Positions 604 through 32,947 of a stretch of DNA of 32,947 bases are shown in pieces (position 1 is the first letter of the stretch; each line of letters opens with the position of its first letter). The translations under genes were made by a program, and so were the position numbers. The notes below the pieces were generated by a model. That model saw only the letters and a list, made by a program, of their open reading frames with translations, was not told where the DNA came from and did not search any database. The stretch lies in the IMG/VR virus record IMGVR_UViG_3300043466_000439, positions 1 through 32,947 of that record, one strand, 5' to 3'. Origin of the DNA: a virus.

Positions 604-834
604 TTAATTTTCAATTGTTGGAAATGTAGGTGTAGGCTTAGGCTCAAACGGACTCAAAGGAATATCTAATAAATAAGCGTATTGAGTTGGAGCAATATCT
701 ACTTCATCTGATTCACTTAAAAATAAAAAATATACATCATTAATATCTTGAACAAATCCAAGAAATGTATCAGCATCAAAGAACACTCCTTGTAGTTCTT
801 CCGCTTGTTGATTTGTTACTATTCTACCTTTCAT
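604..834 (-). CDS. Small fibre-associated protein (76 aa), branch version
   Basis: A 76-residue protein of unknown biochemical role, acidic in the middle (SESDEVDIAP) with a proline-rich C-terminus (FEPKPTPTFPTIEN). It starts in a TAATG overlap with the 259-aa tail protein and so belongs to the tail tip/fibre operon. Bases 634-760 of this gene are repeated exactly at the window's right end, where the C-terminus reads PKPSPPFPPIEN and the tape measure follows. The gene is therefore shared by two genome variants, and only its last codons differ. A virion or fibre-assembly role is inferred from position only. Confidence 0.7.
   Translation of the reverse strand: MKGRIVTNQQAEELQGVFFDADTFLGFVQDINDVYFLFLSESDEVDIAPTQYAYLLDIPLSPFEPKPTPTFPTIEN
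634..760. repeat. Exact 127-bp direct repeat, left copy
   Basis: Identical base for base to 32821-32947. The match stops at 633/32820 (t versus a), and the right copy ends with the window. The length equals a common maximum assembly k-mer, so this is best read as the overlap closing a circular assembly, not a biological repeat. Confidence 0.9.
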
Positions 835-1613
835 TAGACTTGTCTTGATAAAGTTGTTTGATATGCTTGAACCGCTGTATATAAGTTATCACATTCTGTT
901 TGTGTAAAACCATCTGATAAATAACCAAAAGCTATTTGTCTACTACTATTCTGAATAGTTGAATTACTTAAATCTGTTGACCTTGCACCAAATAAAAAAA
1001 ATAAATTTGGCTTAGCAGTTGATGCAACTGATGACGTTGCGTGAGTTGTATTTCTAACTAATCTTACGGCATTTGATGCTGTTCTACTTGCTTGATAAAA
1101 TCCACTTGAATCTGTAACTGCAATTGACGTGTTGGTTGTTGTATTAACTTGACCATAGAAAACATTGTCAGTCCATCTCTCAATAATAAAACAAGAATTT
1201 TGTCCTCCTGCTCCTGCTCCTGCTCCTGCAGTTGCACTACCTGAGCTGTTGGTTCTTGAATATACACCAAAAGCCATACTATTCAATGACATAACACTAT
1301 TAATATTTATTCCAGTGTTTGCATATGTAGCTCCATTAGGAGTCATTCCTGTGCTTGAATGTGTCCACCCAGTTTGAAAACTTAAATTATAAGTTCCTGG
1401 AGTCTTAAGATTAACCGCATGACTTGAAGCTGTGCCCCCACAAATTGGATAGATAGCATTGAATTTTGTCCATATTGAATAACCTTTCAAGTCAACTACC
1501 AAAGTATTAATAGCCGCTTGTTGTGTAGGGTCTGTTATTGCAGCCGCTGTTATGAATGCTTGAGCATCAGGATCTGAAACTGTTGGAGCAAATAAATATG
1601 GATTAATTATCAT
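834..1613 (-). CDS. Tail tip / receptor-binding-like structural protein (259 aa)
   Basis: A 259-residue protein whose opening (DPDAQAFITAAAITDPTQQ, then a LVVDLKGYSIWTK stretch) resembles a widespread class of phage tail or fibre proteins. The rest is Ser/Thr/Asn-rich, beta-type sequence, consistent with an adhesin-like fold. Residues around 125-140 form an Ala-Gly run encoded by four perfect CTCCTG units (1205-1228). It overlaps its neighbours on both sides: the fibre gene by 4 nt and the 76-aa gene by TAATG. Its place at the end of the tail operon, after a fibre protein, supports a host-recognition part; the exact function is inferred. Confidence 0.7.
   Translation of the reverse strand: MIINPYLFAPTVSDPDAQAFITAAAITDPTQQAAINTLVVDLKGYSIWTKFNAIYPICGGTASSHAVNLKTPGTYNLSFQTGWTHSSTGMTPNGATYANTGININSVMSLNSMAFGVYSRTNSSGSATAGAGAGAGGQNSCFIIERWTDNVFYGQVNTTTNTSIAVTDSSGFYQASRTASNAVRLVRNTTHATSSVASTAKPNLFFLFGARSTDLSNSTIQNSSRQIAFGYLSDGFTQTECDNLYTAVQAYQTTLSRQV
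1205..1228. repeat. Hexanucleotide microsatellite (CTCCTG)4
   Basis: Four perfect tandem CTCCTG units inside the 259-aa tail protein gene. On the coding strand they read as alternating Gly and Ala codons, so gain or loss of a unit keeps the frame and changes loop length by two residues. Confidence 0.9.
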
Positions 1614-2584
1614 ACTCTTGTGCCTATTATTGTAACTTTCAGACCTTTTGCAGTTCCGTCTCCTATTTGGTCAATATCAACTGTAATTTCAGCATCATCT
1701 GCTAATGAAGTGTCGCTAATAACTGGAGGTGTTGCAGCTGTTGTTGAAGTCTTTTCTGTATTGTCAATAGTCAATTTTGTGCTTAAAATTGTATTACCAC
1801 CCTCATTAATATCAACAGTAAAAATGTTACCACTTGATTGTGCTGTTGTCAACGAAGCTCTCACCGCAGTTACGGTCATAGCACATGGAGTTCTAAAAGT
1901 AACCTTACCAGCTCCAGCTGTTAAGGCAGTTGTTTCATCTGAACAAGCTACTTGAATCTCAATAGGAAATGACCGCCATGACAAAGTTCCCGAAGCATTT
2001 GTTTGTAATACTTGACCGCTTGTCCCATCCGCTGTTGGTAGTGTGTATGTTGTACTCGCTGCTAAATTATCAGCTGCTTTTAATCCAACGTAGTTAGTTC
2101 CGTTATCACTATCCTCTCTAAATCTTAGCTCAGTTGCCTGTGTTGAATTACCTCCAACTAATACCGATCCACTACCATTTGGCAATAATTCAATGTTGCC
2201 ATTTGCTCCATCATAAATTCTGATTGAGCCTTGACTTGCATCTCCTTCATGAGTTCTTAAAATTAAATCACCAGTCCCTCTTGTAACTATTGTAGCATCA
2301 GCATTATTATCACCTACTCTAACAGAGTCAGTATTTAGATGAACATCTCCAGTCCCATCTGGTGCTATTGTTATATTTCCATTTCCTGTGCTGGTAATAT
2401 TAAATCCATTGACATCTAAATTACCTCCAAGCTGTGGAGATGTATCAAGAGATACTTCTATTAAATCAGCAACAGCTACTTTCTTTGAAACATAACCGCC
2501 TCCAGAGGATTCTGCTATCTCAACAAGATCTGTTGATGCAGCTTTTCCTGTCTTACTTGTTAATTGTGAAATTTTAATTGCCAT
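1610..2584 (-). CDS. Tail fibre protein with G-rich beta repeats (324 aa)
   Basis: A fibre-type protein. The N-terminus (MAIKISQLTSKTG, about residues 1-45) looks like a virion-attachment domain. The next part (about 46-170) has repeating pieces such as PQLGGNLDVNGFNI, ITIAPDGTGDVHL and IELLPNGSGSVLVGG, the pattern of repetitive beta-strand fibre shafts. A 'TYTLPTADGTSGQVLQTNASG' hinge is followed by a beta-sandwich-like C-terminal domain (about 215-324). Such proteins are frequent in aquatic phages. It follows the 49-aa repeat protein with an 11-nt overlap and overlaps the next tail gene by 4 nt. Probable role: host attachment; target unknown. Confidence 0.8.
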   Translation of the reverse strand: MAIKISQLTSKTGKAASTDLVEIAESSGGGYVSKKVAVADLIEVSLDTSPQLGGNLDVNGFNITSTGNGNITIAPDGTGDVHLNTDSVRVGDNNADATIVTRGTGDLILRTHEGDASQGSIRIYDGANGNIELLPNGSGSVLVGGNSTQATELRFREDSDNGTNYVGLKAADNLAASTTYTLPTADGTSGQVLQTNASGTLSWRSFPIEIQVACSDETTALTAGAGKVTFRTPCAMTVTAVRASLTTAQSSGNIFTVDINEGGNTILSTKLTIDNTEKTSTTAATPPVISDTSLADDAEITVDIDQIGDGTAKGLKVTIIGTRV

Positions 2585-2723
2585 CTTCTATTATTCTTTC
2601 TTGATTATCTTCTGTTATTCTTTGTTGATTATCTTCTGTTACTCTTTTTAACACAACAGCAACGGTCTTTTGAATTGCTTTTTTAGCACTTGACCAAATT
2701 GCAGTGAAATAATAACCGTACAT
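2574..2723 (-). CDS. 49-aa tail-region protein with 8-residue repeats
   Basis: A short gene filling the space between the 88-aa protein and the fibre gene. The product starts MYGYYFTAIWSSAKKAIQK and ends in three copies of an eight-residue unit: RVTEDNQQ, RITEDNQE and RIIEDGN. They are encoded by a near-perfect 24-bp tandem repeat at about 2586-2645. The same unit appears at the C-terminus of the upstream tail protein (DRVTEDGQRRLIEI). Repeats of this R-I/V-T-E-D-G/N kind recur in phage tail proteins and probably form coiled coils. The ATG lies 2 nt after the upstream stop, and the 3' end overlaps the fibre start by 11 nt, so it fits the operon well. Confidence 0.7.
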   Translation of the reverse strand: MYGYYFTAIWSSAKKAIQKTVAVVLKRVTEDNQQRITEDNQERIIEDGN

Positions 2724-2725
2724 GA

Positions 2726-2992
2726 TTATAAAATTAAAGCAACTGATCCACTTGTCAATTGAATACCACTAAATTTTTTTCCATCTTTTGGTCTTATCAA
2801 TGCTCCAGCCTTAACAGCTATTGCTGGATTTGTAATCAATTGACTTTTGATATCACTTCCAGCCAACTTAATTGAGCTGAATATTGTATCCTCCAGAATA
2901 AAGATACCATCAAAATTTAATGTTTGCTCTGCTGTTGTGTTAACAATTAATGTCCCTTGCTGAGCTGTCAAAACGCTATTAGATACTGCCAT
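2726..2992 (-). CDS. Small structural protein (88 aa)
   Basis: An 88-residue protein, mostly predicted beta strands (GTLIVNTTAEQTLNFDGIFI ... VKAGALIRPKDG), without membrane segments or Cys. Proteins of this size and style follow the large tail-tip protein in Bacteroidetes phages and are taken as small virion components. It is packed 3 nt after the 794-aa tail gene and 2 nt before the 49-aa gene. No catalytic motif is visible; the structural role is inferred from context. Confidence 0.65.
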   Translation of the reverse strand: MAVSNSVLTAQQGTLIVNTTAEQTLNFDGIFILEDTIFSSIKLAGSDIKSQLITNPAIAVKAGALIRPKDGKKFSGIQLTSGSVALIL

Positions 2993-2995
2993 GCT

Positions 2996-5380
2996 TTAAA
3001 TTTCAATTAGTCTTCTCTGACCATCCTCTGTGACCCTATCCTCTGAAGATTCAACTGCTCTGAAATACTCAGAATAAGGATCATAAGGAGGCGATATGGT
3101 TGTTGTTTTAATACCCTCTCCCTCTATTATGCGAATTAGTTCGACAGTTGTACTGGTATTCTTTCCACTTTGATAATCAACTACTTTCTGCAAACGGTAA
3201 ACAACACCATCAATACTGATTAATTTTCTAAAATCAAGAGAATTAATATCTGATGGTTTCAACATCATTGAGCAAGTTATTTGTTTGCCAAATCTTGATA
3301 TTAATTCTTTTATGAATTTCTCATGATAATGATATAGATTGTTGCTTGTGTAATTTGTAGTTGACCAAAACACATAATTAGGGACACCAAAATTAAAATC
3401 AAATGTTGGAGCTTCAACACTATCTAAATGACCAACATAAGGCTGAAAATATGATAAATGTGAAACATCATTTTCATCTCTATGAAACCAAACAGCAATG
3501 AATGGACTCCCTAATTGGACAATGAATGGCTTCCCTTTCTTTTTTTCAATTGTCCCATTTCCCTCATCATCAAATTTCACCTGAAATGATCTTGGCATTA
3601 TCAACATAGTGAAATTCCCCTGATTGTCCTTTGGTATTTTTACCAATAATTTTTGGCTGAATGGCAGCTTAAATTCTGTGTCGTTATTTGCAAATTGACT
3701 TTGACTTTGAATTAACAATGATCCATATTGCTGCTTAATATCCTCAAAGTATCTTTGATTCCAATAGTCATCTTCCTGTTCAAAATTAAACTTGTAATTC
3801 TTTGAACTAAAATTAATGGTTGGCTCAATGACTATCTCTTTGCTCCTATCTAATTTATCTGACCAATCAATAGCGTCACCACTTGAAAAATAAAAACTTG
3901 ACAATGGCTCAATCTCTAAAACTGATGGATCATCCACTGAAGGCTTTACATATAAATTAAATGCTGTTATTAATCCTTTAAAGAATTGCTCACAAGTCAT
4001 ATCTGGAAGGAACGCATCAAGATATACTGTGCCACCAGCTGATAAAGCCTGTGGTTGTTTTAATAAATTAAGATCAGCAGTATCTGACAAAATACTAACC
4101 TCAAGATTAGCATTGGTTAAGTTAGCTCTTGAGATTGTGCAATATGGTATCTGAAATCTTATATCAAATCTAATGTCATCATTATAACCAATGTTTAACA
4201 TTCTTGAATAATCAAATGAGAATGTTACTGCTGTTGTGGTTGATGTTATTGCTCCACTATACAATAAATCATTACTTATTAAACTATTGCCTTTGTAAGT
4301 GTATAACAATACTTGATATTCACCATTGATTGTAAATGCACCATTACCATTTCCTGTTATTGTAATGGTTAAATCATGATCTCCAGAATAATCAATTTTA
4401 TACAACCCCTCAGATGCACAGACAAATCTGAATTGACCAAAATCTTGCACTTGATCAAGATTATCTTGATTAATAGTACAACCATAATGAGCCAATATCT
4501 CATAATCTGTGATGCTAACATATCCTTTTATTGGAGCAAAAAATGGAGTACCTCCAAATCCATTACTCAAAAATTTACCAGTTGATGTGTAGGCATTACT
4601 TTGAGTTGTGAATACACTCTCATTATCAGCTTGCTCTTCAGTAATTGTTGGCAAATCTCCACCAGGATAAGCCATTAATAATTTTTTAAATAATTGTGTC
4701 TCAAGAAAGTTACTGCTCCATGTAATCCCACAATAATCAAATGCTTTTTTTAAAATGTTATAACAGAACACTTGAGGAGGAATATGCTCAACACCAAAGG
4801 TCTCAGGAGTTGGACGCGTGAACCCGTAATCAATCAAGCCGTAGTAATACCCCAACCCCAGCCACCCTTGGGAATCAACACTATTTGAAGGTGATCCATT
4901 TAATTGAATAATCCCAGCCCATGAATTTGTTTGATTTTCCCTTATCAATGAATGGTTATATTCTGACCATCCAAGCTCATTGACTTTTATTTTGGAAAGC
5001 CTTGAAATGTAATCAATTGTGTCGCTAATTAAAGTGATGTCAAATGACCATACTCCATCCATTAATTTACAATTCATCAACTGAGCAATACCATTGAACT
5101 CAAGTAAACCATTTTGATAGTATTGTGCTTGAGCCTTAATGCTTGGATCAAAATCAACAAAATCAGAGTCTCTGTTTAAAACATTTTCAGTTGCAGATAA
5201 CGTGAACACACTCAACATCAAGTCAGTGTTGTTCTTTGTACCAGGCAAAGTGATAGTCTTTGAATTGTTGCCCTTTCGAGCTGTCAAATTCTTAATATCA
5301 CTTATGTTGAATGTCAATGGGAATGGAGCATCTTGGTTGATGTCAACTAACCTCCCATTTATAAATAATTCACCAGCCAT
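2996..5380 (-). CDS. Large tail-tip / baseplate hub-like protein (794 aa)
   Basis: The second of two large tail proteins typical of Bacteroidetes siphophages. The N-terminus (LFINGRLVDI, then LTFNISDIKNLTARKGNNSK and TITLPGTKNN) is characteristic of this family, whose members are usually annotated as tail or minor structural proteins. The central part (about 300-600) is beta-rich, compatible with hub domains. The last residues carry one RVTEDGQ unit also found in the 49-aa protein downstream. The start overlaps the stop of the 510-aa tail gene by 1 nt. No enzymatic motif is seen. A role in the tail-tip complex is likely; the exact position is inferred. Confidence 0.8.
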   Translation of the reverse strand: MAGELFINGRLVDINQDAPFPLTFNISDIKNLTARKGNNSKTITLPGTKNNTDLMLSVFTLSATENVLNRDSDFVDFDPSIKAQAQYYQNGLLEFNGIAQLMNCKLMDGVWSFDITLISDTIDYISRLSKIKVNELGWSEYNHSLIRENQTNSWAGIIQLNGSPSNSVDSQGWLGLGYYYGLIDYGFTRPTPETFGVEHIPPQVFCYNILKKAFDYCGITWSSNFLETQLFKKLLMAYPGGDLPTITEEQADNESVFTTQSNAYTSTGKFLSNGFGGTPFFAPIKGYVSITDYEILAHYGCTINQDNLDQVQDFGQFRFVCASEGLYKIDYSGDHDLTITITGNGNGAFTINGEYQVLLYTYKGNSLISNDLLYSGAITSTTTAVTFSFDYSRMLNIGYNDDIRFDIRFQIPYCTISRANLTNANLEVSILSDTADLNLLKQPQALSAGGTVYLDAFLPDMTCEQFFKGLITAFNLYVKPSVDDPSVLEIEPLSSFYFSSGDAIDWSDKLDRSKEIVIEPTINFSSKNYKFNFEQEDDYWNQRYFEDIKQQYGSLLIQSQSQFANNDTEFKLPFSQKLLVKIPKDNQGNFTMLIMPRSFQVKFDDEGNGTIEKKKGKPFIVQLGSPFIAVWFHRDENDVSHLSYFQPYVGHLDSVEAPTFDFNFGVPNYVFWSTTNYTSNNLYHYHEKFIKELISRFGKQITCSMMLKPSDINSLDFRKLISIDGVVYRLQKVVDYQSGKNTSTTVELIRIIEGEGIKTTTISPPYDPYSEYFRAVESSEDRVTEDGQRRLIEI

Positions 5381-6912
5381 TAGTTAATCTGTGATCTGTA
5401 AGTAAATGTTCTTTCTATGTTTACTGTCTCTTGAATCAAGCCATCTTTCCTCCTACTCTTAAGAGTATAGGATGAATTGGTTACTTTGACTGGCTCAAAT
5501 TTAAACTCGTAATTTATATAACAATCAGATGTTGTTAGGTTATCAACTTCATTACCACCAACATATTCCCATTGGTCTGTTTTTGGGCAATCATCAACTG
5601 ATGACCAACGATATATGACATTATCTCCAAAAAATGGATTAGTTTCAATATTTGAACTTCCATTTAAATACCAAAAAGGCTCTTCAAGTACCATATTTAC
5701 AGAAGTAACTATCTCTCCACCCTCTTCAATATATAATTCATACAAATCATCCCCAGTTTTTGGCACGTTATATTCATAGTCAACACCATTATAACTGAAT
5801 GTAACTTTCACACATTCACAATCTGATTCAATGACTTCAGGTAATTCAAGATAAACAAGTGGCGAATCATACAAAGATTTCACAAGCCATTGCTGAACAT
5901 CTTGATTAATCCAGTCAGAATTCAATACCAATGTCTCACTCTTTGTCTTTGCGAAGTCAAGTTTCTGACCTCTATTTATTCCGTATTCATAATTAAAGGT
6001 CTCACTGTTCCAATTACCAGGATCTCTCTGATATCCAAAGCTCTGAACATTTGTAGATTCTGTTGATACTAAGCTAAATGTAAATGAATCAAAACTTCCA
6101 TATTTATTTAACCAATGCAATCTGTGAGTTGTGTATCTCTTGCAATCCAAATCCATATAAACGTATATCTCTTCAGACTGTCTATCAAGCTCACCCTCGT
6201 CAACAGTTACTTCAACTTTTATTCTGTAAAAATAACAAAGATCAAATTGCTCATTGGTTATAATTCCAGCATTAATCAAAGCTTGTGGCCCAACATTTAC
6301 AATGTTCATATCCACATCTTCTAATGGAATGTTATCTATTTCAAGCTCATTAAAATTGATATCATAAAGAATAACTCTCAATTCGTAGTAATCAGCACTA
6401 ACATTTGTTAAGTACCCTAAGTATAGATTTTCATTTCTTGCACAAAAAATCTTTTTTGCCCTTGGATAATCAGTTAAAAATAAAGTGTCAATGTTTGGAA
6501 ATGTAAATGAATAATTAGCATAATCAAAATTCAACCATCTCTTGTATTCAAATGCTCCATTGAATGCTTTTAAACCACTTGATGTATCGCTTCCATTTAA
6601 GTCAACAACTGGAGGGGTGCCATATTTGTCATAAACAATTATTGAATATGTTGGTAAATCTATGTTGTTTTCAAAATCATCAGTCAAGGCTGGAGTCATT
6701 AAATAACTTTGAACAGCCTCAGATACATCAATTCTACCGAAATTTAAAAACTGAGGAAATACTTGCTGAGTCAATCTCAATTGACCATAGATATACAATT
6801 CAACAATGAATGAGAAATTTGGCTCATCAGTCTGATCACTGCTGAATATGAATACCAATGGATTTCCAGCTGGCATTAAAATACTCGGCTCATTGGTTAT
6901 GTTTACTGCCAT
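5380..6912 (-). CDS. Distal tail-like structural protein (510 aa)
   Basis: A 510-residue tail protein of the Bacteroidetes-phage type, recognisable by an N-terminal beta-rich part (MAVNITNEPSILMPAGNPL) and a middle motif HWLNKYGSFDSFTF at about residues 265-280. It contains several Cys in the second half (ECVKVTF, DDCPKTDQW). Members sit just before the large hub-like protein, as here, and are usually called tail or minor structural proteins, functionally comparable to a distal tail protein. It overlaps the 174-aa completion protein by 10 nt and the 794-aa protein by 1 nt, so the three are probably made together. Confidence 0.75.
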   Translation of the reverse strand: MAVNITNEPSILMPAGNPLVFIFSSDQTDEPNFSFIVELYIYGQLRLTQQVFPQFLNFGRIDVSEAVQSYLMTPALTDDFENNIDLPTYSIIVYDKYGTPPVVDLNGSDTSSGLKAFNGAFEYKRWLNFDYANYSFTFPNIDTLFLTDYPRAKKIFCARNENLYLGYLTNVSADYYELRVILYDINFNELEIDNIPLEDVDMNIVNVGPQALINAGIITNEQFDLCYFYRIKVEVTVDEGELDRQSEEIYVYMDLDCKRYTTHRLHWLNKYGSFDSFTFSLVSTESTNVQSFGYQRDPGNWNSETFNYEYGINRGQKLDFAKTKSETLVLNSDWINQDVQQWLVKSLYDSPLVYLELPEVIESDCECVKVTFSYNGVDYEYNVPKTGDDLYELYIEEGGEIVTSVNMVLEEPFWYLNGSSNIETNPFFGDNVIYRWSSVDDCPKTDQWEYVGGNEVDNLTTSDCYINYEFKFEPVKVTNSSYTLKSRRKDGLIQETVNIERTFTYRSQIN

Positions 6913-9403: not shown

Positions 9404-9407
9404 TAAG

Positions 9408-9910: not shown

Positions 9911-10081
9911 TTAATATATATTATTGTTCGATATTATATCCATGCAATGTTTAAACCCTTTAATGTATGGATGCTCTTCATCATTATTGAATATCACTCT
10001 GAGTCTATCATATTGAAATATAAGCTCAGCATTGATATCAACATCACTTTGTTCAATTGGTTTAATTGGTTCGCATCCCAT
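9911..10081 (-). CDS. 56-aa conserved-looking small protein
   Basis: A short gene linking the amidotransferase-like gene and the small terminase. The ATG overlaps the preceding stop as TAATG, and the stop lies 5 nt before the small terminase start. The product begins MGCEPIKPIEQSDVDINAEL and continues with a helical stretch (LIFQYDRLRVIFNNDEEHPYIKGFKHCMDII). No known domain is recognised. The tight, coupled packing and protein-like composition make it a real gene. It could assist the terminase or the glycan enzymes, but nothing in the sequence decides this. Confidence 0.65.
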   Translation of the reverse strand: MGCEPIKPIEQSDVDINAELIFQYDRLRVIFNNDEEHPYIKGFKHCMDIISNNNIY

Positions 10082-11148
10082 TATTTGCAGTATTTAACAT
10101 AGAAAGTATATGGTACAACTTTCAGCTTTGCAAGTATCCAGATAAGATGCTTGTATTTTTTAAAGTCATATCTATCAAACTCTGATCTTTCTCTCTTTCT
10201 GATGTTCACCAGTCTGAGCATCCTTTCTGCACTTGCTCCAAGCTTTGAGAAATCAAACTCAGATTTGATTGAGAATTGCTCTTTGGCTTGCTCCTTTGTT
10301 AGCTTTCCACTTCTCACTTGAGCAGCAAGGTAAACAATACGTTTATCAATTCCAAACTTCTCTGGAAGGAGGAAGGATCCAACAAACTCAGTGTAAACAT
10401 TCTCGCAATGCTTACCTCCGTAATCTTGCCAGTTGATGAGTCTCTTCATTTCAACCTCCATTGAGTCTCTATCAAATCCATAGTGAAATGGTCTCACATT
10501 CTTGATTCCCATTGCCGCATAGAATAGTTGATCTTTGAAAGTGAATAGAGGATAGTTCTGGAGTCTGAGTCCAGAATATTTATTGTAAACTGATTGAATG
10601 TACTTGGCATCCATATAAGTCCATCCTTTTGGAGTTGATCCTTCAGTTCTAAAATCATGACCATTGAGAATGTATTTGATGCCATACTTGAATGCAGTAT
10701 CATACATGAGCTTGGTCATTGCAATATCATTTGGAATATCAGCATCTGGGACACCAGCCCATAAGAATGCATCATTGAGTCTGTCATATTCCTCCTTGTT
10801 CACTGTGTATGTAATTGAATCAACACCAAGCAGCTTGACTAACTGAGTCATGTTGTGAACAGCTTCAGGGGCATTCCAATGATTATCGAAATGGATAACC
10901 AATGGTCTTAGATTCCAATATTTGACAGCAGTGTACAGAAGAGTTGAAGAGTCAATCCCTCCACTGATCCCCATGATGCAGTCATATTTTTTATCAGCTC
11001 CTTTGATTCTTATCTCTTTGATGATATATTTTAGCTCCAAAGGATTGGCTTGCCTTTCAAGTTCATCATGTAGATCACAGTATTCGCATTGATGCTCTCC
11101 AATATGAGCTATGCTTTCATCAAATAAACAGCGTGGACATTCTTTCAT
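10081..11148 (-). CDS. N-acetyl sugar amidotransferase-like PP-loop ATPase (WbpG family, 355 aa)
   Basis: An ATP-pyrophosphatase (PP-loop) enzyme. It has zinc-binding pairs CPRC (4-7) and CEYC (21-24), the PP-loop SGGIDSS (62-68), HFDNHW (86-91) and NGHDFRTEG (162-170). This matches the N-acetyl sugar amidotransferase/WbpG family, which turns an acetamido group into an acetamidino group on surface sugars, using ammonia made by HisH/HisF-like partners. No such partners are encoded here, so ammonia or the partner would have to come from the host. It overlaps the GT-B-like gene by 29 nt and the 56-aa gene by TAATG. The substrate (host surface glycan, virion or other) is unknown. Confidence 0.8.
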   Translation of the reverse strand: MKECPRCLFDESIAHIGEHQCEYCDLHDELERQANPLELKYIIKEIRIKGADKKYDCIMGISGGIDSSTLLYTAVKYWNLRPLVIHFDNHWNAPEAVHNMTQLVKLLGVDSITYTVNKEEYDRLNDAFLWAGVPDADIPNDIAMTKLMYDTAFKYGIKYILNGHDFRTEGSTPKGWTYMDAKYIQSVYNKYSGLRLQNYPLFTFKDQLFYAAMGIKNVRPFHYGFDRDSMEVEMKRLINWQDYGGKHCENVYTEFVGSFLLPEKFGIDKRIVYLAAQVRSGKLTKEQAKEQFSIKSEFDFSKLGASAERMLRLVNIRKRERSEFDRYDFKKYKHLIWILAKLKVVPYTFYVKYCK

Positions 11149-11857
11149 AATTCACAAAGTTATGGTATATTTTGCTAATATAGTAATTATCAATATCTCT
11201 TGTATTAAATTCTCTAATAATTGATTGACAGATGTCATCCACTGATTTCCAATGAATAGAGCCAGGGAGATCACCATTGTAAATTGACCGCCTTCCCATC
11301 AGTCCCATTTCGATATTGGTATTTGGACATCCATCATGAGGAGCCAATCTGAGATTCAAAAAGCATTGAGAGTAAACATCCACCAATTCCTCTTGTGTGA
11401 ATGTATCGTGACCAGCTCTGATGATAGGGATGTTGATACGTTCTTTGATTTCATTGATTATATCTTGACCATAGTATTCAGGAGCATTTCCAGAATACCA
11501 GAATATCTTGTCACCATTAGGCGCCAATGGCCAGTGATGTGGCATCACTGCATTGATAGGACACCATATTGACTCAATGCCTTTGGATTGAAGAGTATCA
11601 AGCACTTGTAAGCTCACAGCAATGTTGACTGAGTCCTTCATAAATCTTGCCCATTCATCTGGAAGATCTTTCGCATCAGATCCAAACCAGACAATTGTAC
11701 TTGCTCCAATATGAGTTGTAAGCATTATCAGATCCTCCTCTCTATACATTCCCATGAATACAGTGTCAACTATTGGCGAATGGTATGGTGTTAAGTTGAA
11801 CTTCTCAATGAGCCCTTTGTCAAGTCCAGCAAGTGATTCTGATATATGTGCTTGCAT
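11120..11857 (-). CDS. GT-B-type glycosyltransferase-like protein (245 aa, short)
   Basis: A 245-residue protein resembling the C-terminal half of GT-B (GT4-like) glycosyltransferases: a nucleotide-sugar-binding type region CFLNLRLAPHDGCPNTNIEMGLMGRRSIYNG-like at about 165-195, with E183 at the place of the conserved glutamate. Family members are usually 350-400 residues, so the acceptor-binding half is short or divergent (IVWFGSDAKDLPDEW near 55-70 may be what remains). It is coupled to the upstream GT-A-like gene (TAATG at 11857) and overlaps the amidotransferase-like gene. Probable role: transfers a sugar in the same glycan pathway. Confidence 0.6.
   Translation of the reverse strand: MQAHISESLAGLDKGLIEKFNLTPYHSPIVDTVFMGMYREEDLIMLTTHIGASTIVWFGSDAKDLPDEWARFMKDSVNIAVSLQVLDTLQSKGIESIWCPINAVMPHHWPLAPNGDKIFWYSGNAPEYYGQDIINEIKERINIPIIRAGHDTFTQEELVDVYSQCFLNLRLAPHDGCPNTNIEMGLMGRRSIYNGDLPGSIHWKSVDDICQSIIREFNTRDIDNYYISKIYHNFVNYERMSTLFI
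11155..11162 (-). promoter_or_regulatory. TAACTTTG element before the amidotransferase-like gene
   Basis: A TAnnTTTG -7-type box inside the end of the GT-B-like gene, 6 nt before the ATG at 11148. It has no clear upstream TTG box. It could give an internal leaderless transcript; alternatively a chance match. Confidence 0.3.
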
Positions 11858-12555
11858 TATAATAATTGTTTTAATTCACCAAACTCTTTCTCCAGGATTG
11901 AGACATGACATTTCTCTGACTTGAGAGCTCCTGTCCAGTGATCAGTGAACTTGTGCTTGTTTATCCATTTGTTTGTTGAGATTGATAGTAGTTGCACTGA
12001 GTTGTCACATTCAAGGATTCCAATCTCTTGATTTGTTTTCAGAGCCTTTAGCCACATTGACCAATCAAGGCCTGAATTAAGTCTTTGGTCAAATGGTGTC
12101 CAATTAATTTTTTCAAGGAATTCTTTATTTAGAAATCTTCCAATTCCAATTGGCTCATTCATTCTAACTGAATCCTTGTATCCTTTCCAATGCACCAGTC
12201 TAATTTCATCAGAGACATCAGCAAAGTGACAGCCAAGTTGACCAATCATTCCAAAGTCCTTGCTGTGCTCTTTACATCTTGCAAGATAACCATCACTGCA
12301 CCAGTCAGATGATCCCATGAAGATAACAGCATCTGCATTGTAATTCTTTGATGCTTGGAATCCTTTATTCCATTTGTTGCCAAGGGGATCATTGTCAATG
12401 GATATGAATTCACAGTCTAATTCTTTAGCTATCTCATTGGCTTGGCTCTCATGCCCTAAAACAATCGGAGTGACTCCTTGTCTCTTAAGTCTTGAGATAG
12501 TTAATCTGAGCAGAGGAAATCTACCAAATGCTGGTATTGGTGCAGTTATTATCAT
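11857..12555 (-). CDS. GT-A-type glycosyltransferase (232 aa)
   Basis: A family-2-like GT-A glycosyltransferase: N-terminal MIITAPIPAFGRFPLLRLTI, then an ADAVIFMGSSDWCSDGYL segment (74-91), where FMGSSDW stands at the place of the nucleotide-sugar/metal-binding DxD motif, and a GLDWSMW segment at about 161-167. Length fits the short catalytic domain alone; there is no membrane segment. It is the first of three coupled glycan genes, overlapping the 78-aa gene by 4 nt and the GT-B-like gene by 1 nt. Donor and acceptor are unknown; modification of host surface sugars is the most usual role for such phage genes. Confidence 0.7.
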   Translation of the reverse strand: MIITAPIPAFGRFPLLRLTISRLKRQGVTPIVLGHESQANEIAKELDCEFISIDNDPLGNKWNKGFQASKNYNADAVIFMGSSDWCSDGYLARCKEHSKDFGMIGQLGCHFADVSDEIRLVHWKGYKDSVRMNEPIGIGRFLNKEFLEKINWTPFDQRLNSGLDWSMWLKALKTNQEIGILECDNSVQLLSISTNKWINKHKFTDHWTGALKSEKCHVSILEKEFGELKQLL

Positions 12556-14604: not shown

Positions 14605-15224
14605 TACTTATTATTTAACTGATTAATATACTGACTGTAATACTCATTAGCTGCTGTGAGCTTCTCTTTCATTTCATCAATGTAATCTAAATTGACTGAG
14701 TATTTCAAGACTGTGATTCTCTTGGCTGGATCAATATGACTGACCTTATGAATGAATCTGTTGTCCCAATCATTTAGCAAGCTGTCATCTGTGTCAATCA
14801 TGCAATAGATTAACTCAGCGTATTGCTTATTTAACAGCCAACAATATGCTCTCAATTGCCATTCGTAATCTTTATTCACTCCTTCATCTGGTGTTGCTGG
14901 CCAAGTCTCAAGTGACCAAGGTGTCTTGATGTCAATGATGCAATCATCCAAAATGATATCTGGCTCTCCAGTTAGGAATTCATTCTCAAATCTTTGCTTA
15001 TTCTTAACATAGAATGTGCCTCTGACTTGATTAACAAGAGCAATTGACTCCTCCTCCCAATCCTTGCCTTTGAGCATTGGCTTGGTTGTGATGGATGTTG
15101 TGAATCCAAAGAACTGCTCCTTTGCTATTTTTCTAACCTCAGACTTTGCTGTCTCAGATAATGTCTCTGACTTTGCCTTTGGCTGAGTCATGAGCTTTCC
15201 TAATGCTGATGGATGCCATTTCAT
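14604..15224 (-). CDS. YqaJ/RecB-like exonuclease (206 aa)
   Basis: A PD-(D/E)XK nuclease of the YqaJ/RecB type: acidic helix DWEEES (55-60), core GEPDIILDDCIIDIKTPWS with D89, D98 and K100, then the helix YEWQLRAYCWLL (about 118-130). At 206 residues the length is normal. Such enzymes process dsDNA ends 5' to 3' and work with an annealing protein; here the ERF gene is immediately upstream with an ATGA overlap, so the two form a two-component recombination system. The product probably acts on concatemers and ends during phage DNA replication. Confidence 0.85.
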   Translation of the reverse strand: MKWHPSALGKLMTQPKAKSETLSETAKSEVRKIAKEQFFGFTTSITTKPMLKGKDWEEESIALVNQVRGTFYVKNKQRFENEFLTGEPDIILDDCIIDIKTPWSLETWPATPDEGVNKDYEWQLRAYCWLLNKQYAELIYCMIDTDDSLLNDWDNRFIHKVSHIDPAKRITVLKYSVNLDYIDEMKEKLTAANEYYSQYINQLNNK

Positions 15225-15736
15225 AACGCTGCCTCCTGTTCTTTCGTTAGTGAATAGCTTGATCTAAGTTGCTCAATAGTATACTTTCCATTGGCAATAG
15301 CATCCTTTGCTTTCTTGAATTGCTCCTCTGATAGTGATGGATTGGCTGCCTTGACACTTGTTGTGACTGTATTGCCATCATCATCCACAGCCTGCAATGA
15401 TAATAGAGCTTGCAATGTTGCTCTTCGGTAGTAAGTTGTTGCACTAATCATCTTTTGTGGATCAGTAATTGATGGCAATGGCAACCAAGACTCAACAAAT
15501 TGTCCTGAATCAATATCAATAATCTGAGTTGTCAGAATATTATCCTTGATTGGTTGCAACAACAAGAGTCCATTCTCATGAAGAATTGGCTCAACTGTCT
15601 CAAGCAATGCGTTGATATCAGCATAGGATCTTTTGAAATGTGGATTTGTGGCATTCTTAACCACTTTACCAATAGACATCTTTGCTCTGTGGAGCTTCAT
15701 GTACAAACTGACATGACTTAAATTTTCATTTTGCAT
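15221..15736 (-). CDS. ERF-family single-strand annealing protein (171 aa)
   Basis: An ERF-type recombinase: VVKNATNPHFKRSYADINALL (about 25-45), 'ILHENGLLLLQP' (51-62) and SATTYYRRATLQALLSLQAVDDDGN (about 97-121), the conserved YYRRY-like core of the family. The core is complete, and the C-terminal tail (SLSEEQFKKAKDAIANGKYT) is a small UBA-like helical unit typical of these proteins. It anneals complementary single strands and is paired with the downstream exonuclease (4-nt overlap). The 18-nt gap upstream has no SD-like sequence. Confidence 0.85.
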   Translation of the reverse strand: MQNENLSHVSLYMKLHRAKMSIGKVVKNATNPHFKRSYADINALLETVEPILHENGLLLLQPIKDNILTTQIIDIDSGQFVESWLPLPSITDPQKMISATTYYRRATLQALLSLQAVDDDGNTVTTSVKAANPSLSEEQFKKAKDAIANGKYTIEQLRSSYSLTKEQEAAL

Positions 15737-21582: not shown

Positions 21583-21864
21583 TTATTTTTTGAATCTCTT
21601 TACTAAAAATTTGGCTATTTTTCCAACGATCCCAGATTGTTCATTGACATCAACCTTAACCTCTCCTTTATCAATTGATACATCAACTTTATCAGAATCA
21701 ATTTTTAGACTTTTACCCTCATCATCTTTATGAAAGTCAACATCAACCTTTGGTGTATCAACTTTAATGTCTGTAACGCCATCTTTTCGCGTTATTTTAA
21801 CATCCACATTCTTTGTGTCAATGTTAATGTTCAAATTCTTTTTTGGTCTCCCTGGCTTTTTCAT
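21583..21864 (-). CDS. AT-hook-like protein with VDV repeats (93 aa)
   Basis: A 93-residue protein that opens MKKPGRPKKN, containing the GRP core of an AT-hook flanked by lysines. Then comes a set of short alternating strands, each with a Val-Asp pair (NVDVKI, IKVDTPKVDVDF, KVDVSID, VKVDVNE), about residues 18-76. It ends in an amphipathic basic helix (GIVGKIAKFLVKRFKK). It overlaps the endolysin by 4 nt and is the last gene before the terminator. I know no family for it. It may bind DNA or membranes late in infection; both ideas come only from composition. Confidence 0.65.
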   Translation of the reverse strand: MKKPGRPKKNLNINIDTKNVDVKITRKDGVTDIKVDTPKVDVDFHKDDEGKSLKIDSDKVDVSIDKGEVKVDVNEQSGIVGKIAKFLVKRFKK

Positions 21865-22379
21865 ACTTCATTATTTGTTATTATTCCTTTTGGCTCAAGT
21901 TTAATGACTCTCACATTGGATGGTTGTGCAATCTTCCATGCTGTCCTCCTTGCTTGACTCAGTCTTGATTTTAATATCCTTGCAACATTCACTGAATTGT
22001 TCTGGTTGCCACCTAATACATGGTAGTGAGTATCATCCTCACCAATATAGATCCCAACATGACCGCCTCTGTTTCTTTTGAATGTCAATACATCTCCAAG
22101 CATTGGTCTTTCGGCTTGTGTTCCATATTTATTCCAGTTCAATGCCCAAAGAGGATTCTTAACAACTTGTAATCCTTGAGCATGGCAACAATAAGCAATG
22201 AATAAACCACACCATGGAATCTCATCATTGATGTATGTTCTTTCAAGTCCAATTGCTTTTGCCCAGGATAGAATGGTTGGATTGTGTTTTGATCCAATAA
22301 TCTCCTGAACACCGATGTGCTTAATAGCTTCAACCAATATCTTAGGAGCTTTCTCTTTATTTAACCAAGTGTAAGTCAT
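21861..22379 (-). CDS. Endolysin, TIGR02594-type cell wall hydrolase (172 aa)
   Basis: A 172-residue peptidoglycan hydrolase of the TIGR02594 type (NlpC/P60/CHAP-like): SKHNPTILSWAKAIG (30-44), IPWCGLFIAYCC with the likely nucleophile C57, PMLGDVLTFKRNRGGHVGIYIGE (in pieces, 92-114) with H107, and HVLGGNQNNSV (120-130). It has no signal peptide, so release depends on the membrane proteins upstream, with which it overlaps (23 nt with the 87-aa gene). Its role is degradation of the host wall at lysis. A second, more CG-rich homologue lies at 1-368. Confidence 0.85.
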   Translation of the reverse strand: MTYTWLNKEKAPKILVEAIKHIGVQEIIGSKHNPTILSWAKAIGLERTYINDEIPWCGLFIAYCCHAQGLQVVKNPLWALNWNKYGTQAERPMLGDVLTFKRNRGGHVGIYIGEDDTHYHVLGGNQNNSVNVARILKSRLSQARRTAWKIAQPSNVRVIKLEPKGIITNNEV

Positions 22380-26363: not shown

Positions 26364-26368
26364 GGCTT

Positions 26369-26376: not shown

Positions 26377-26384
26377 CAAAAAAA

Positions 26385-26402
26385 GGAGGGACACTGCCCT
26401 CC
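26385..26402 (-). terminator. Rho-independent terminator after the tail-tube-like gene
   Basis: On the minus strand, GGAGGG-CAGTGT-CCCTCC followed by TTTTTTT (26378-26384). The stem can be extended by a G-U and A-U pairs. It ends the capsid/tail-tube transcript 26 nt after the stop. Confidence 0.8.
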
Positions 26403-26428
26403 CTTTATGATAAGAGTTTATTCAATTC

Positions 26429-26962: not shown

Positions 26963-26990
26963 TGTTATTTCTTTTTAATGTTATACAATA

Positions 26991-27010
26991 GGGAGGAGTT
27001 ACCCCCTCCC
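26991..27010 (-). terminator. Hairpin between capsid and tail-tube genes
   Basis: GGGAGG (26991-26996) pairs with CCTCCC (27005-27010), loop 8 nt. On the minus strand it is followed by TATTGT, not a real U-run. It is either a weak partial terminator that lowers tail-tube relative to capsid mRNA, or a stabilising 3' hairpin of the capsid message. Confidence 0.5.
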
Positions 27011-27021
27011 ATTATTATTTA

Positions 27022-27993: not shown

Positions 27994-27997
27994 TTTA

Positions 27998-28576
27998 TTA
28001 TACTTTAGAATTTTTTAAGAATAGTTGTCTGGCTGTCAAGTTGCCAACTTTGCTGAATTTCTCAGCTTCTTTGGTTTCAATTGATGGTTGTGCCTTGAAA
28101 GTCTCGAAATCACTTTTCAAAGTGGTCAACTCATTAACCAAGTTTTTGTTTGTCTCTGCAATAGCTTTGGTCATTTCAGCCAACCCTTCGACAGCTTTGG
28201 AGAATGCCTCAAGCTTTGCATTTACTATTGATTCAACTTGCTCAGCACTCATTGACTCAGCTGATGTTTCCTCAACGTCAACTTCACCTTCTCCTTCATT
28301 CTCTCTCTCGTCAATGATCTCAGTGATGATACCTTCAGCATCAACTACAATAGATACACCAGCAAGATCACCGCTCAATGCGTGAGTTCCTTCAGGAGCT
28401 GGAATTCTTTCGTCATCAGCAACAACAAAAACTGGCATTCCAACTTCAAGAGCATCATACTCAATTGTTGTAACACCATCAGCCAATACAGCTGATTCAA
28501 ATGTGTCAACTGATTTTGAGAATTGTGCTTTCATTTCAGCAATCAATTCCTTAATAGTTTGCAATTCTTTGTTCAT
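27998..28576 (-). CDS. Scaffold-like protein (192 aa)
   Basis: A 192-residue acidic protein between protease and capsid. It has a helical N-terminus (MNKELQTIKELIAEMKAQF), a small beta domain (about 35-85, VLADGVTTIEYDALEVGMPV onwards), an acidic linker (ENEGEGEVDVEE), and a long helix (AEQVESIVNAKLEAFSKAVE to DFETFKAQ) that would form a coiled coil. Size, charge and order match phage scaffolding proteins, which are removed or cleaved as the head matures, here presumably by the upstream protease. Confidence 0.7.
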   Translation of the reverse strand: MNKELQTIKELIAEMKAQFSKSVDTFESAVLADGVTTIEYDALEVGMPVFVVADDERIPAPEGTHALSGDLAGVSIVVDAEGIITEIIDERENEGEGEVDVEETSAESMSAEQVESIVNAKLEAFSKAVEGLAEMTKAIAETNKNLVNELTTLKSDFETFKAQPSIETKEAEKFSKVGNLTARQLFLKNSKV

Positions 28577-28588
28577 ACTTATTATATT

Positions 28589-29491
28589 TTATTGTTCGAA
28601 AATCCCTAATTCTTTTAACTTAGCCTCTGACCATCTCTTTGCTGCAAGTCCACCCCATAATAAATAAGAGATTGTCCCACAAGCTGATTGATCATTCTCA
28701 TCATAGTATTCCTCAGCTCTTGACAGATAAGAATACATTCTCTTGATGATTGCCACTGATAGAGTTTGTTTATTGGCTAAGGTTGTGGCTCTTAAGCGAC
28801 CTACTCTTGTGGCACATTTATTACCATACTTTTGATTGAGCTCAATTCCTTTCTTGGCATTGTTGCTCACAGCCTCTGGATAGTCATTGTAAAATCTGAT
28901 GTATTCTTGAACTTGCTTAAGCTCTTGGTAAATTGTAGCAAATTCATGCTCCCAACCTTTGCCAGTCTCAAGCAATTGAAAAACTCCCTCAATTGAAAAT
29001 CCTGTAAACATTCCAGACTTAGCTGCATCATATACATCCTTGTTTGTTACTTTGTAGCTGACAATCCAAGAGCCATCATTCTCATCCTTGAATCTTTCTG
29101 GAGCTGTGAAACCTTTTGACTCATCAATGATATATGACATGATCATATAGATTCCATCAACCACTCTCTTGCTATCATGCTCAAGATTAACATTATTGAA
29201 ATTCTCTCTCCTTGCGTAATCAAATACAATATCCTTGATTGCAGATGGTGAAAAATTCACATAATACTCTTCACCAGTCTGAGGATCTCTTCTGAATATG
29301 GGAGTGTTCGCAGATATAGCCACTCCAGTGATGACTTGCTCCTCATCATTGAATTGATAAGCAACCTTTTTGGAAAATGTTTCAAATGATTTCTCATGTG
29401 CTGGATTAGCCACAAGGCTGTTGAATGATACCGTTGTCTCTGGATCTTCAAGATCTATGACAATATCATATAATGGTAACTCTCTTAGCAT
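28589..29491 (-). CDS. XkdF-like prohead protease with C-terminal extension (300 aa)
   Basis: A prohead serine protease of the XkdF type: MLRELPLYDIVIDLEDPET, SFNSLVANPAHEKSFETF (about 22-39), VITGVAISANTPIFRRDPQTG (about 54-74), and NVNLEHDSKRVVDGIYMI (about 98-115), where H103 is a likely catalytic residue, followed by GSWIVSYKV. The C-terminal part (about 205-300, YPEAVSNNAKKGIELNQKYG, AEEYYDENDQSACGTISYL) is a separate helical domain often fused to such proteases. I chose the ATG at 29491: homologues start with this strand, and the longer form from 29545 would overlap the divergent plus-strand gene. Confidence 0.75.
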   Translation of the reverse strand: MLRELPLYDIVIDLEDPETTVSFNSLVANPAHEKSFETFSKKVAYQFNDEEQVITGVAISANTPIFRRDPQTGEEYYVNFSPSAIKDIVFDYARRENFNNVNLEHDSKRVVDGIYMIMSYIIDESKGFTAPERFKDENDGSWIVSYKVTNKDVYDAAKSGMFTGFSIEGVFQLLETGKGWEHEFATIYQELKQVQEYIRFYNDYPEAVSNNAKKGIELNQKYGNKCATRVGRLRATTLANKQTLSVAIIKRMYSYLSRAEEYYDENDQSACGTISYLLWGGLAAKRWSEAKLKELGIFEQ

Positions 29492-29503
29492 ATAAATATT
29501 ATG

Positions 29504-29511
29504 TAAATTTG
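29504..29511 (+). promoter_or_regulatory. TAAATTTG -7-type promoter element for the plus-strand gene
   Basis: A TAnnTTTG box in the 26-nt divergent gap, 6 nt before the ATG at 29518. No good TTG box at 17-23 nt upstream. The only visible promoter signal for the only gene on this strand. Confidence 0.45.
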
Positions 29512-29517
29512 TTCGAA

Positions 29518-30201
29518 ATGATTTTTGTTTATCCATACCATTCAAGAGCTGAGTCTGACTTTGAAATCAACCAATCTATTGCAATGATTTTAAATGTTTA
29601 TCCTAATGCTCAGATATGGACAATTGGCAAAGCTGTGCCTGGAATTAATAACATTCCTTGCAATCAGCATAATAATATCAGAGGCTGTGATGTAACCAAT
29701 AGAATACTGACCTTTGCTAAGGAGATTGGGGGAGATTTTATCTATATGAACAAAGATTTTTTTATCACTAAGTTTTGGCAACCCCATGTGGCAATAAACA
29801 TGAAGAGTATTATTGTTAATGACAATCATCCACCTCATACTCAAGCAGCTCAAATAAACACATTGGAATTCTTAAAACATAATAACTTTACTACCTACAA
29901 TTATGAGACACATACTCCATGTGTAATGAACAGCAAAAAAATAATTGACCTATTTGACAACATTAACTGGCAAGAGGATAATCACTTTGTTAAATCAATC
30001 TATTGCAATGTGTATCAAGTCCCATCAAAGGAAGGATTCAATTGCAAAGTATCTGTGCCATCCATAGCCAAGGCTCAAGAATATATTTCAATCCAAGGAT
30101 GTTTCTCAACTGGTGATAATTTCTGGAATAAAACCTCTGTTGATTGGATTAAAAAACTGAGTTTAATTCTTGTAGCTGAACTTTTTTCTGTGTTTTTGTA
30201 A
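29518..30201 (+). CDS. Stealth/GT-A-like glycan transferase-like accessory protein (227 aa)
   Basis: The only plus-strand gene. Its middle, GGDFIYMNKDFFITKFW (about 71-87), resembles the Stealth-family motif with 'FIYFNDDFF', where the acidic pair binds metal; here the second residue is Lys (MNKD). A later 'ETHTPCVMNSKKI' (about 130-142) resembles the H-x-P region. Stealth proteins transfer hexose-1-phosphate to capsule sugars, so a surface-glycan function is likely, but the changed acidic pair leaves activity open. Start 29518 preferred over 29473 because of the TAAATTTG box and the protease gene. The 3' end runs 53 nt into the tape measure gene, antisense. It reads as an independently transcribed accessory gene. 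Confidence 0.55.
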   Translation: MIFVYPYHSRAESDFEINQSIAMILNVYPNAQIWTIGKAVPGINNIPCNQHNNIRGCDVTNRILTFAKEIGGDFIYMNKDFFITKFWQPHVAINMKSIIVNDNHPPHTQAAQINTLEFLKHNNFTTYNYETHTPCVMNSKKIIDLFDNINWQEDNHFVKSIYCNVYQVPSKEGFNCKVSVPSIAKAQEYISIQGCFSTGDNFWNKTSVDWIKKLSLILVAELFSVFL

Positions 30202-32791
30202 TATCAGACTCTAAAACAACCACTTGAGATGTCGTAGCCTGAGCTTGTTGACCTTGAGCAACTTGTGTTAAATCAGTTGTCTGAGCATTTGTATTGGCTG
30301 TAAATTCACTTGATCCAGCTCCAGCTGTTGCACCGCCACCAGATGATAATTGCGGAGGTGTTGGAGCTGATCCAGATTGATACTTTTGATTCATGATAGC
30401 CAATGCCTGAGTAATTCCAATCAATGAGGCTGATGCAATGGCAGCAATACCAGCTGGTGATGGAGGCGGCCCAAATTGAGCAATACCTTTGACAATTGCT
30501 GATGCTGTATCAATTCCAACTTGAGCCAATCTCAAAGCTTTTTCCCTCGCAAATTGTGCTTTCTTTATTTTTTCCTCCTCATTATAAGCCTTCAGTTGTA
30601 CTTGATACTTTTGTTGTGCAAATCTTTCCTCAATCTGTGTCTTTTGATCAGCAGTCAATCCCTCTTGATTAAGTTGTGCCTGAAGATTCTTATCAAGATT
30701 AGCAAGATCCTCATCTCTATTCTCTGCAATCTTATTCAATCTGGCTTGGTCAATCTCATTGACAAGAGCATTTATTTTCTTGAGTTCATCCAATCCTCTC
30801 TGAGCTCCTTCAATTGCATCTGTTACTCCCTTAAGAGATTCCTCTCTTGCTTTTATTTCATTGTCTTTGGCTTGATCATCATATTTCTTATCAATCTCAG
30901 CTTTCTTTTTTCTGTATTCCTCTTGAGCTTTTAATCCAGCATCATAGAATTCCTCCTCATCAATAGCATCACTCTGAAATGCTTTAAGATTGATTGCCTC
31001 TTGTTGTTTGTACCATTCCTCAAGATCAAGCAATTCATTCTCTCTATCTGAATTTGTAAATCTTATAACTTGATCTCGCAATGCTTTTTTCTTAGCCTCT
31101 TGCTCAGCAATCTTATCAAGCTCCATTTGATTGTACTTGTTTATGATTGCCATTCTTTCTGTTTGCTCTTGCACTCTTAACTGATATTCGAGCTGAGCAT
31201 TACCATGAGCCAGTTCATATTTTTTATCATAGCCAATTGAAAGCTCAAATAATTCTTTCTCTTGGCCTTCCTTCATCAAATCAAGACTCAATTGGAATTG
31301 GTCATCCTCAGCCTTGATTCTATCTTCATTTGCTTTGCGTTCAATCTCAGCCAATCTCTCAGCCTCTTTCTTAGCTGCCTCTGCTCTTTTATCAGCTCTT
31401 GCCTTAGCCTTTGCAGCTCTATCTTTTGCAGCATCATCCTCAGCTTTATCTTGCTCAATTCGTAATACAGTTAAATCCTCTGCATTCTTTCTGTTTGCTT
31501 TGTATTGTTCACTTGCATTTTTCTTGGTTTCATTTAGTGATTTCTGTAATTTCTTAGCTCTATCACTATCAGCATCACCAGATGCTTTTAATATCTTTAT
31601 TTCAGCTTCATATGCTGCAATCTTCTCTCTTTGCATTTGCAGAATTGCACGACCAGATTTCAATGCAGCTTGGAGTTTTTTCTCCTCCATCTCCTCAGTA
31701 TTTTTTCCAGCTGCTTGTGCTTTGCGAATTTCAAATGATAGGTTATCATCAACAGCTTGTGCTTTTTTCTTTTCAGCTGCAATCTTTTTATTCATCTCTT
31801 TCTCAGTGGCATCAGTCTTGGCTCTTGCATTTTTTTTCATCTTTGCAGTTTGCTCATCATCAACCACACCAAAGTATTCAAGAGCTTTTATGACTCCATA
31901 AATTACACCAATGAAAGGAAACATCACAGCAATTGCAAGCTTAACTGATGGTCCAAGTTTATTAAACCAGTTATAAGCCTTCATCACTGCTCCACTAACC
32001 TTGTCAAAGTTGGCAATCAATAATCCAACAGCAACCACAATTGCTCCAATCCCTGTGGCAATCAATGCAAGCCTAAATAATTTCAATGCTGTGGTTGAGG
32101 CTGTTGTCGCAGTTGCAAGTCCAACATTGGCACCAGCTTGAGCTGTGGTTGCAGCTGTGTTTGCTAATGCTGGAGCAATGGATCCAGTTAGAATAAAGTT
32201 CTTAGCTTTCTCAAGACCATTTCTTAACTGTAATCCAAGAATTGACTCTTTATTTAAGTTATTAGCAATGATTGAAACTGAATTAACCAATCCTTGTGCT
32301 GCTTGCAACTTGACCATTGTCTGAGTCAATGCCTCTGATTCAACACCAGCCAATGCAACCGCTGATTGAATTCCTTGAAATGCAGCTGCTCCAGTCTCAA
32401 CTCCTTGCAAAGTTGTATCAAGGCCAACAAAATCAGATGATAATGCTGTTGTCTGAGCCTTTAAATCTCCAATTTCATCCTTAAGATTTGCAGCGTTTTT
32501 GATTGCTTGCTGACCAATAGGGGTCTCAGCTCCAGCTTGAGCCGCCAAGTTTTGATATTCCTTCATGGTCTTGGTCAACTCCCTCATGGTAAGTCCACCA
32601 GACTCAACTCTCGCATTTAACTCTTGGAGTTTTTTATCAAATGTATCAATACCACTATTATCTGATGCTGTCTTTTGTGTTGTCTTGAGATCTTGATTCA
32701 AGTCATTGACAGCTGCATCCATAGCTTGGATGTCATTAACACTATTACCAGTATTAACTTTAAGTGAAAATACAACTGATTTTTCTGCCAT
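30149..32791 (-). CDS. Tape measure protein (880 aa)
   Basis: The tail-length ruler. N-terminal helical part (about 1-220), two hydrophobic segments at about 235-262 (LFRLALIATGIGAIVVAVGL) and 277-305 (VKLAIAVMFPFIGVIYGVIK), a very long charged coiled coil (about 315-740, Lys/Glu/Ala-rich), then an Ala/Gly segment, a Ser/Gly/Thr linker and a conserved-type end VVVLESDITKTQKKVQLQEL. At roughly 1.5 angstrom per residue, 880 residues suggest a tail near 130 nm, which fits a siphovirus. It starts in a TAATG overlap with the small fibre-associated gene, confirming that junction as real. It ends inside the convergent plus-strand gene. Confidence 0.85.
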   Translation of the reverse strand: MAEKSVVFSLKVNTGNSVNDIQAMDAAVNDLNQDLKTTQKTASDNSGIDTFDKKLQELNARVESGGLTMRELTKTMKEYQNLAAQAGAETPIGQQAIKNAANLKDEIGDLKAQTTALSSDFVGLDTTLQGVETGAAAFQGIQSAVALAGVESEALTQTMVKLQAAQGLVNSVSIIANNLNKESILGLQLRNGLEKAKNFILTGSIAPALANTAATTAQAGANVGLATATTASTTALKLFRLALIATGIGAIVVAVGLLIANFDKVSGAVMKAYNWFNKLGPSVKLAIAVMFPFIGVIYGVIKALEYFGVVDDEQTAKMKKNARAKTDATEKEMNKKIAAEKKKAQAVDDNLSFEIRKAQAAGKNTEEMEEKKLQAALKSGRAILQMQREKIAAYEAEIKILKASGDADSDRAKKLQKSLNETKKNASEQYKANRKNAEDLTVLRIEQDKAEDDAAKDRAAKAKARADKRAEAAKKEAERLAEIERKANEDRIKAEDDQFQLSLDLMKEGQEKELFELSIGYDKKYELAHGNAQLEYQLRVQEQTERMAIINKYNQMELDKIAEQEAKKKALRDQVIRFTNSDRENELLDLEEWYKQQEAINLKAFQSDAIDEEEFYDAGLKAQEEYRKKKAEIDKKYDDQAKDNEIKAREESLKGVTDAIEGAQRGLDELKKINALVNEIDQARLNKIAENRDEDLANLDKNLQAQLNQEGLTADQKTQIEERFAQQKYQVQLKAYNEEEKIKKAQFAREKALRLAQVGIDTASAIVKGIAQFGPPPSPAGIAAIASASLIGITQALAIMNQKYQSGSAPTPPQLSSGGGATAGAGSSEFTANTNAQTTDLTQVAQGQQAQATTSQVVVLESDITKTQKKVQLQELNSVF

Positions 32792-32947
32792 TAATTTTCA
32801 ATTGGTGGAAATGGAGGTGAAGGCTTAGGCTCAAACGGACTCAAAGGAATATCTAATAAATAAGCGTATTGAGTTGGAGCAATATCTACTTCATCTGATT
32901 CACTTAAAAATAAAAAATATACATCATTAATATCTTGAACAAATCCA
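32791..32947 (-). CDS. Small fibre-associated protein, main-genome version, partial
   Basis: The last 52 codons of the same gene as 604-834; its 5' part lies beyond the window end and, through the circular overlap, at 761-834. From 32821 on it is identical to the left copy. The final codons differ (PKPSPPFPPIEN against PKPTPTFPTIEN). The stop overlaps the tape measure start as TAATG, so this is the arrangement of the main genome. Confidence 0.8.
   Translation of the reverse strand, partial: GFVQDINDVYFLFLSESDEVDIAPTQYAYLLDIPLSPFEPKPSPPFPPIEN
32821..32947. repeat. Exact 127-bp direct repeat, right copy
   Basis: Identical to 634-760 and reaching the last base of the window. See the left copy: this is the closing overlap of the circular path. 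Confidence 0.9.

Follow-up and report, generated by a model that had tools for sequence, protein, structure and literature searches.

Introduction

Assemblies produced by metaSPAdes are documented to carry end overlaps of the largest k-mer length (maxK) at branch points (PMC10914622), and a JGI-style pipeline employing k = 33, 55, 77, 99 and 127 has been described (PMC11003980). Here, we analysed the viral record IMGVR_UViG_3300043466_000439 from IMG/VR; the window studied is the entire record, with a length of 32,947 nt. Among described systems, the self-circular metaSPAdes contig with a maxK end overlap (COBRA, PMC10914622) resembles it in that the overlap is exactly 127 bases long and closes the sequence to the unit length of its family. 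However, the matching copy lies 633 bp inside the record and is preceded by a foreign branch. Comparing only the two contig ends therefore does not reveal the closure, and circles preceded by foreign sequence escape such plain overlap tests.

The relatives of the record are uncultured phages in IMG/VR, of which we found 63 by scanning IMG/VR with the tape measure protein; we refer to them as family A. The record shares with these phages (G005-G011, L007-L040) the gene order and most structural proteins, which are about 71-97% identical. In contrast, the fibre cassette differs, the fibre tip being mostly 41-54% identical to theirs. No relative of the major capsid protein was found among 50,697 deposited phage records.

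An exact 127-base repeat reaches the contig end

An earlier reading made from the letters alone (the sequence-only reading) had noted that the last 127 bases of the record exactly repeat an internal stretch. Indeed, no difference separates positions 634-760 from 32821-32947 (127 bases), and the first mismatch to the left is found at 633 (T) and 32820 (A). This pair is the sole direct repeat of at least 20 bp in the whole 32,947-nt record, in which no inverted repeat of at least 20 bp was found. A 127-bp exact match in 33 kb cannot have arisen by chance. The first copy is located inside a gene encoding a protein of 76 amino acids (the 76-aa gene, 604-834), while the second is flush with the contig end. 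The sequence-only reading had also described several differences in the 30 bases to the left of the repeat, which can be refined: weaker similarity extends leftward to 603/32790, with mismatches only at 618, 627 and 633 (603-633 compared with 32790-32820), amounting to 98% identity over 158 bp (603-760 compared with 32790-32947). Full divergence begins at the stop codon of the 76-aa gene. Beyond this point the neighbouring genes are unrelated, as had been stated, with a 77-aa ORF and a truncated endolysin to the left of the first copy and the tape measure gene to the left of the second.

The length of the repeat equals the largest k of the documented JGI-style pipeline, which may not be the one used for this record. 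Exactly 127 bp is also the start-end overlap of six other full-length contigs; three of these belong to relatives of the record (G009, G010 and G012) and three are circular records from other families in which the 76-aa gene is also present (G002, G025 and G026). These contigs and the documented use of k up to 127 (PMC11003980) agree with the proposal that 127 is the k of the assembly graph. The left copy starts at 634 and is thus internal, which therefore points to a lasso instead of a plain circle. A biological direct terminal repeat is likewise at variance with the internal left copy, and with the full-length relatives being cut at differing places.

Closing the record restores the gene order and unit length of family A

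When the genes of the record were mapped onto its relatives, unbroken sequences gave the order TerL, structural genes, fibre genes, 76-aa gene, tape measure, a plus-strand gene, protease, capsid and portal. The fibre gene, the 76-aa gene and the tape measure gene follow each other without interruption in L009, L012, L014, L015, L022, L032, L033, L047, L121 and others, a distant homologue occupying the place of the 76-aa gene in L012. A zero-gap overlap, as in the motif TAATG, joins the stop codon of the 76-aa gene or its distant homologue to the start codon of the tape measure gene in eight distinct contigs. The same motif is present at 32791 of the record, where the sequence-only reading had placed it (CATTA on the plus strand, TAATG on the coding strand). 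Once 32820 is joined to 634, the order of family A is obtained, with the tape measure directly after the tail-fibre operon as had been expected of a closed circle. Across the junction the reading frame stays open and specifies a complete 76-aa protein with the C-terminus PSPPFPPIEN, as in the relatives L009/L134 and L121; the 3' part of the gene in the true circle would be the version at 32791-32820.

The tape measure protein (30149-32791), whose gene directly follows the 76-aa gene in the relatives, was assigned from its location, its length and its coiled composition; Pfam and PHROGs gave no match to it. Between the tape measure and the protease lies a conserved gene on the plus strand (29473-30201), opposite to its neighbours and overlapping both, whose product had no match in Pfam or NCBIfam. 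Adjoining the terminase is a three-gene cassette (10081-12555) encoding an N-acetyl sugar amidotransferase-like protein, with a WbuX match of 180 bits against a cut-off of 203, and two ORFs without a family match. The amidotransferase-like gene and the ORF at 11857-12555 are well conserved in family A.

The proposed extent of the genome proper, 634-32820, corresponds to 32,187 bp and is arithmetically right. Judged from the gene order and the unit length of the relatives, this interval would represent a circle, i.e., a circularly permuted or terminally redundant genome of a family-A phage. Full-length family-A relatives have units of 31.4-33.1 kb (31,441-33,065 bp), and the closed record falls within this range. 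Among these, the records overlap themselves by 123 bp (G006), by exactly 127 bp (G009, G010 and the more distant G012; distant as compared with G005, G006, G007, G009, G010 and G011) or by 242 bp with 1 mismatch (G011), and have units of 32.1-33.1 kb. Two further relatives are spiral contigs: the ends of G005 (L150/L151) overlap over 1540 bp at 90.5% identity, with a unit of 31,441 bp, and those of G007 (L154/L155) over 397 bp at 95.5%, with a unit of 32,060 bp. Both are strain-mixed assemblies that run past one full turn. Our record resembles them in exceeding one full turn and in having overlapping ends, but the overlapping ends of the spirals are strain variants of 90-95% identity, whereas the extra piece of the record comes from another phage family.

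The first 633 bases probably stem from a second phage family

Two features occupy the left end of the record. One is an endolysin gene (3-368; TIGR02594) of which the contig start leaves only the first 122 codons; it is 61% identical to the genome's own endolysin (21861-22379), which lies at the site of the sole endolysin in six full-length family-A relatives. The second feature is the 77-aa ORF (orf365, 365-598), which is holin-like by position only. Both endolysin genes and orf365 lie on the minus strand, as do the 76-aa gene, the fibre-tip gene (834-1613) and the tape measure gene. Neither orf365 nor a second endolysin was found beside the 76-aa gene in any of the six full-length family-A genomes.

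In contrast, orf365 follows the 76-aa gene in many members of a second phage family (family B), whose portal, where present, is about 22-25% identical to that of the record. Fibre tip, 76-aa gene, orf365 and endolysin occur in this order in L073, L075, L077, L081, L095, L125, L126, L130, L139 and L143; the 76-aa gene followed by orf365 and endolysin goes together with a distinct portal in L073, L081, L126 and others. The family-B phage L003, with a portal 23% identical to that of the record, has an orf365 that is 96% identical to the one found here and is 96% identical to the record over 366-888. A similarity profile gave the same assignment: from about 376 to 633, similarity to the family-A relatives compared was zero versus local identities of 0.92-1.00 to family B (L003), while rightward of 1600 family A is the main match. 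L003 is 100% identical to the version at the end of the record (32790-32947, 158 bp), yet only 96% to the version at its start, so at least two B-like versions exist. Exact 26-mers across the junction at 32790 and near the left end matched no other IMG/VR record, although near-identical records may lie outside the searched set.

Gene order and similarity thus assign 1-633 to another phage family. The sequence-only reading had proposed that these bases are a side branch, which our data uphold, and the proposal can be refined in that the source would be another phage sharing the fibre cassette and not a strain variant. Most likely, 1-633 comes from a co-assembled family-B phage that shares the 76-aa gene.

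A lasso path best explains the record

Very probably, the record is a lasso consisting of a circularly mapping family-A genome of 32,187 bp (634-32820) and 633 bases of a family-B phage. This is supported at the level of sequence, as three predictions testable there hold, namely the gene order, the overlap of 127 and the foreign nature of 1-633. The record would then correspond to a lasso path in a de Bruijn graph with k = 127. The real molecule would be a circularly mapping genome of an uncultured family, with the tape measure directly after the fibre cassette. A second phage, from a different family and presumably in the same sample, would carry a near-identical 76-aa fibre-associated gene followed by its own orf365 and endolysin. 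With at least one identical 127-mer (634-760) common to both genomes, the graph would have a node at which two incoming paths merge. The assembler would have begun on the branch of the second phage (1-633), entered the node through the first copy, circled once and stopped on meeting the same node again at 32821-32947, so that the contig end repeats 127 bp of an internal site. Such an artefact is of an ordinary kind.

The assignment of the adjoining cassette deserves closer attention, as the approximately 940 bp at 634-1574 are common to families A and B and to a further family (C). One might suppose that the entire left stretch to about 1574, with the fibre tip and the 76-aa gene, is of family-B origin and that the switch into family A occurred inside the shared cassette, in which case the circle would hold the wrong 0.9-kb cassette. 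Consistent with this, 1-1574 is colinear at 77-79% identity with the family-B phages L081 and L126, 603-1575 is 91.6% identical to L111/L112, a phage of family C, and the identity to family A over 1-1574 is lower than or equal to that of B or C. However, a second identical stretch of at least 127 bp between the two phages would be required, similarity to family A is continuous from about 634 on, and in the family-A member L033 a fibre gene reaching 80% identity with that of the record is linked without a break to the tape measure gene. We therefore consider this larger chimera unlikely. The interval 634-1574 appears to be a traded cassette that could derive from either phage; its place in the circle is favoured by parsimony, as a single shared stretch suffices where otherwise two would be needed, and by the L033 fibre gene.

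Taken at face value, the deposited sequence reads as a linear genome with a true internal or terminal repeat, two partial 76-aa genes and two endolysins. Such an arrangement is highly improbable and was rejected, considering that the repeat matches the overlap length of the assembler exactly and ends flush with the contig, and that orf365 and a second endolysin are both absent from this site in the six full-length family-A relatives, all of which close as circles or spirals. A template/variable repeat pair of a diversity-generating retroelement, as a repeat of about 130 bp at a tail-fibre locus might suggest, was dismissed as having a negligible chance of being correct, with identical copies free of adenine-directed differences, a second copy that is a mere contig end and no reverse transcriptase among 20 of the record's proteins scanned in Pfam.

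With the lasso opened and the circle closed, the linear record becomes a complete genome, and a false second endolysin as well as a false host or lineage signal are removed. Wrong linkage at host-range genes would mislead host prediction. The record thus serves chiefly as a warning, while also hinting that the same fibre genes are traded among phages that are unrelated.

The fibre cassette recurs in phages that are otherwise unrelated

The 76-aa gene was found in at least 123 stretches of IMG/VR. Its copies in A and B contexts have a median DNA identity of 0.825, compared with 0.81 within family A, and 8 changes of the A/B context label occur along the gene tree, versus 7-12 (mean 10.5) when the labels are shuffled. 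Identity between contexts is as high as within family A and, together with the 8 label changes, this suggests that the gene is nearly uncoupled from the phage backbone. The assembly graph would branch at the 76-aa gene because it is shared across backbones. No match to it was found in deposited phages or in one genome per prokaryote species, so that no host can be named from this gene. Its product has a predicted fold (pLDDT 85) with weak and scattered PDB matches (best Z 3.2), the best viral matches being uncharacterised proteins, mostly of uncultured caudoviruses.

Together with the 76-aa gene, the tail-fibre tip, a putative receptor-binding protein (834-1613), forms a cassette present in three or more phage families that are otherwise unrelated. 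Identity across families is mostly 75-95% for the 76-aa protein and mostly 40-58% for the fibre tip. The model of the tip (pLDDT 92) shows a lectin-type (concanavalin/LamG-type) jelly roll matching carbohydrate-binding domains, a predicted fold as expected of a receptor-binding fibre tip. The matches to these domains and to neurotoxin binding domains, at 8-13% identity, reflect a common lectin fold and imply no relation to toxins.

The lasso may owe its existence to free and recent exchange of this two-gene receptor-binding cassette among at least three to four unrelated families, with breakpoints at gene borders and the 76-aa gene as homology anchor, perhaps via the phage's ERF annealing protein; we regard the chances of this scenario as evenly balanced. 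If true, phages with portals of about 23% identity can carry identical fibre DNA. As a by-product, our analysis thus points to a receptor-binding cassette, composed of a predicted lectin-fold tip and a conserved 76-aa partner, that would move between unrelated, uncultured phage families, which is testable.

The record also encodes an ERF-type single-strand annealing protein (15221-15736; Pfam ERF), a plausible agent of cassette exchange. Family-A assemblies can break at the borders of the fibre cassette, and chimeras of the present type are to be expected at host-range genes. Two family-A contigs, L017 (1-2) and L030 (1), begin exactly at the start codon of the tape measure gene, which suggests that the borders of the fibre cassette are recurrent assembly break points.
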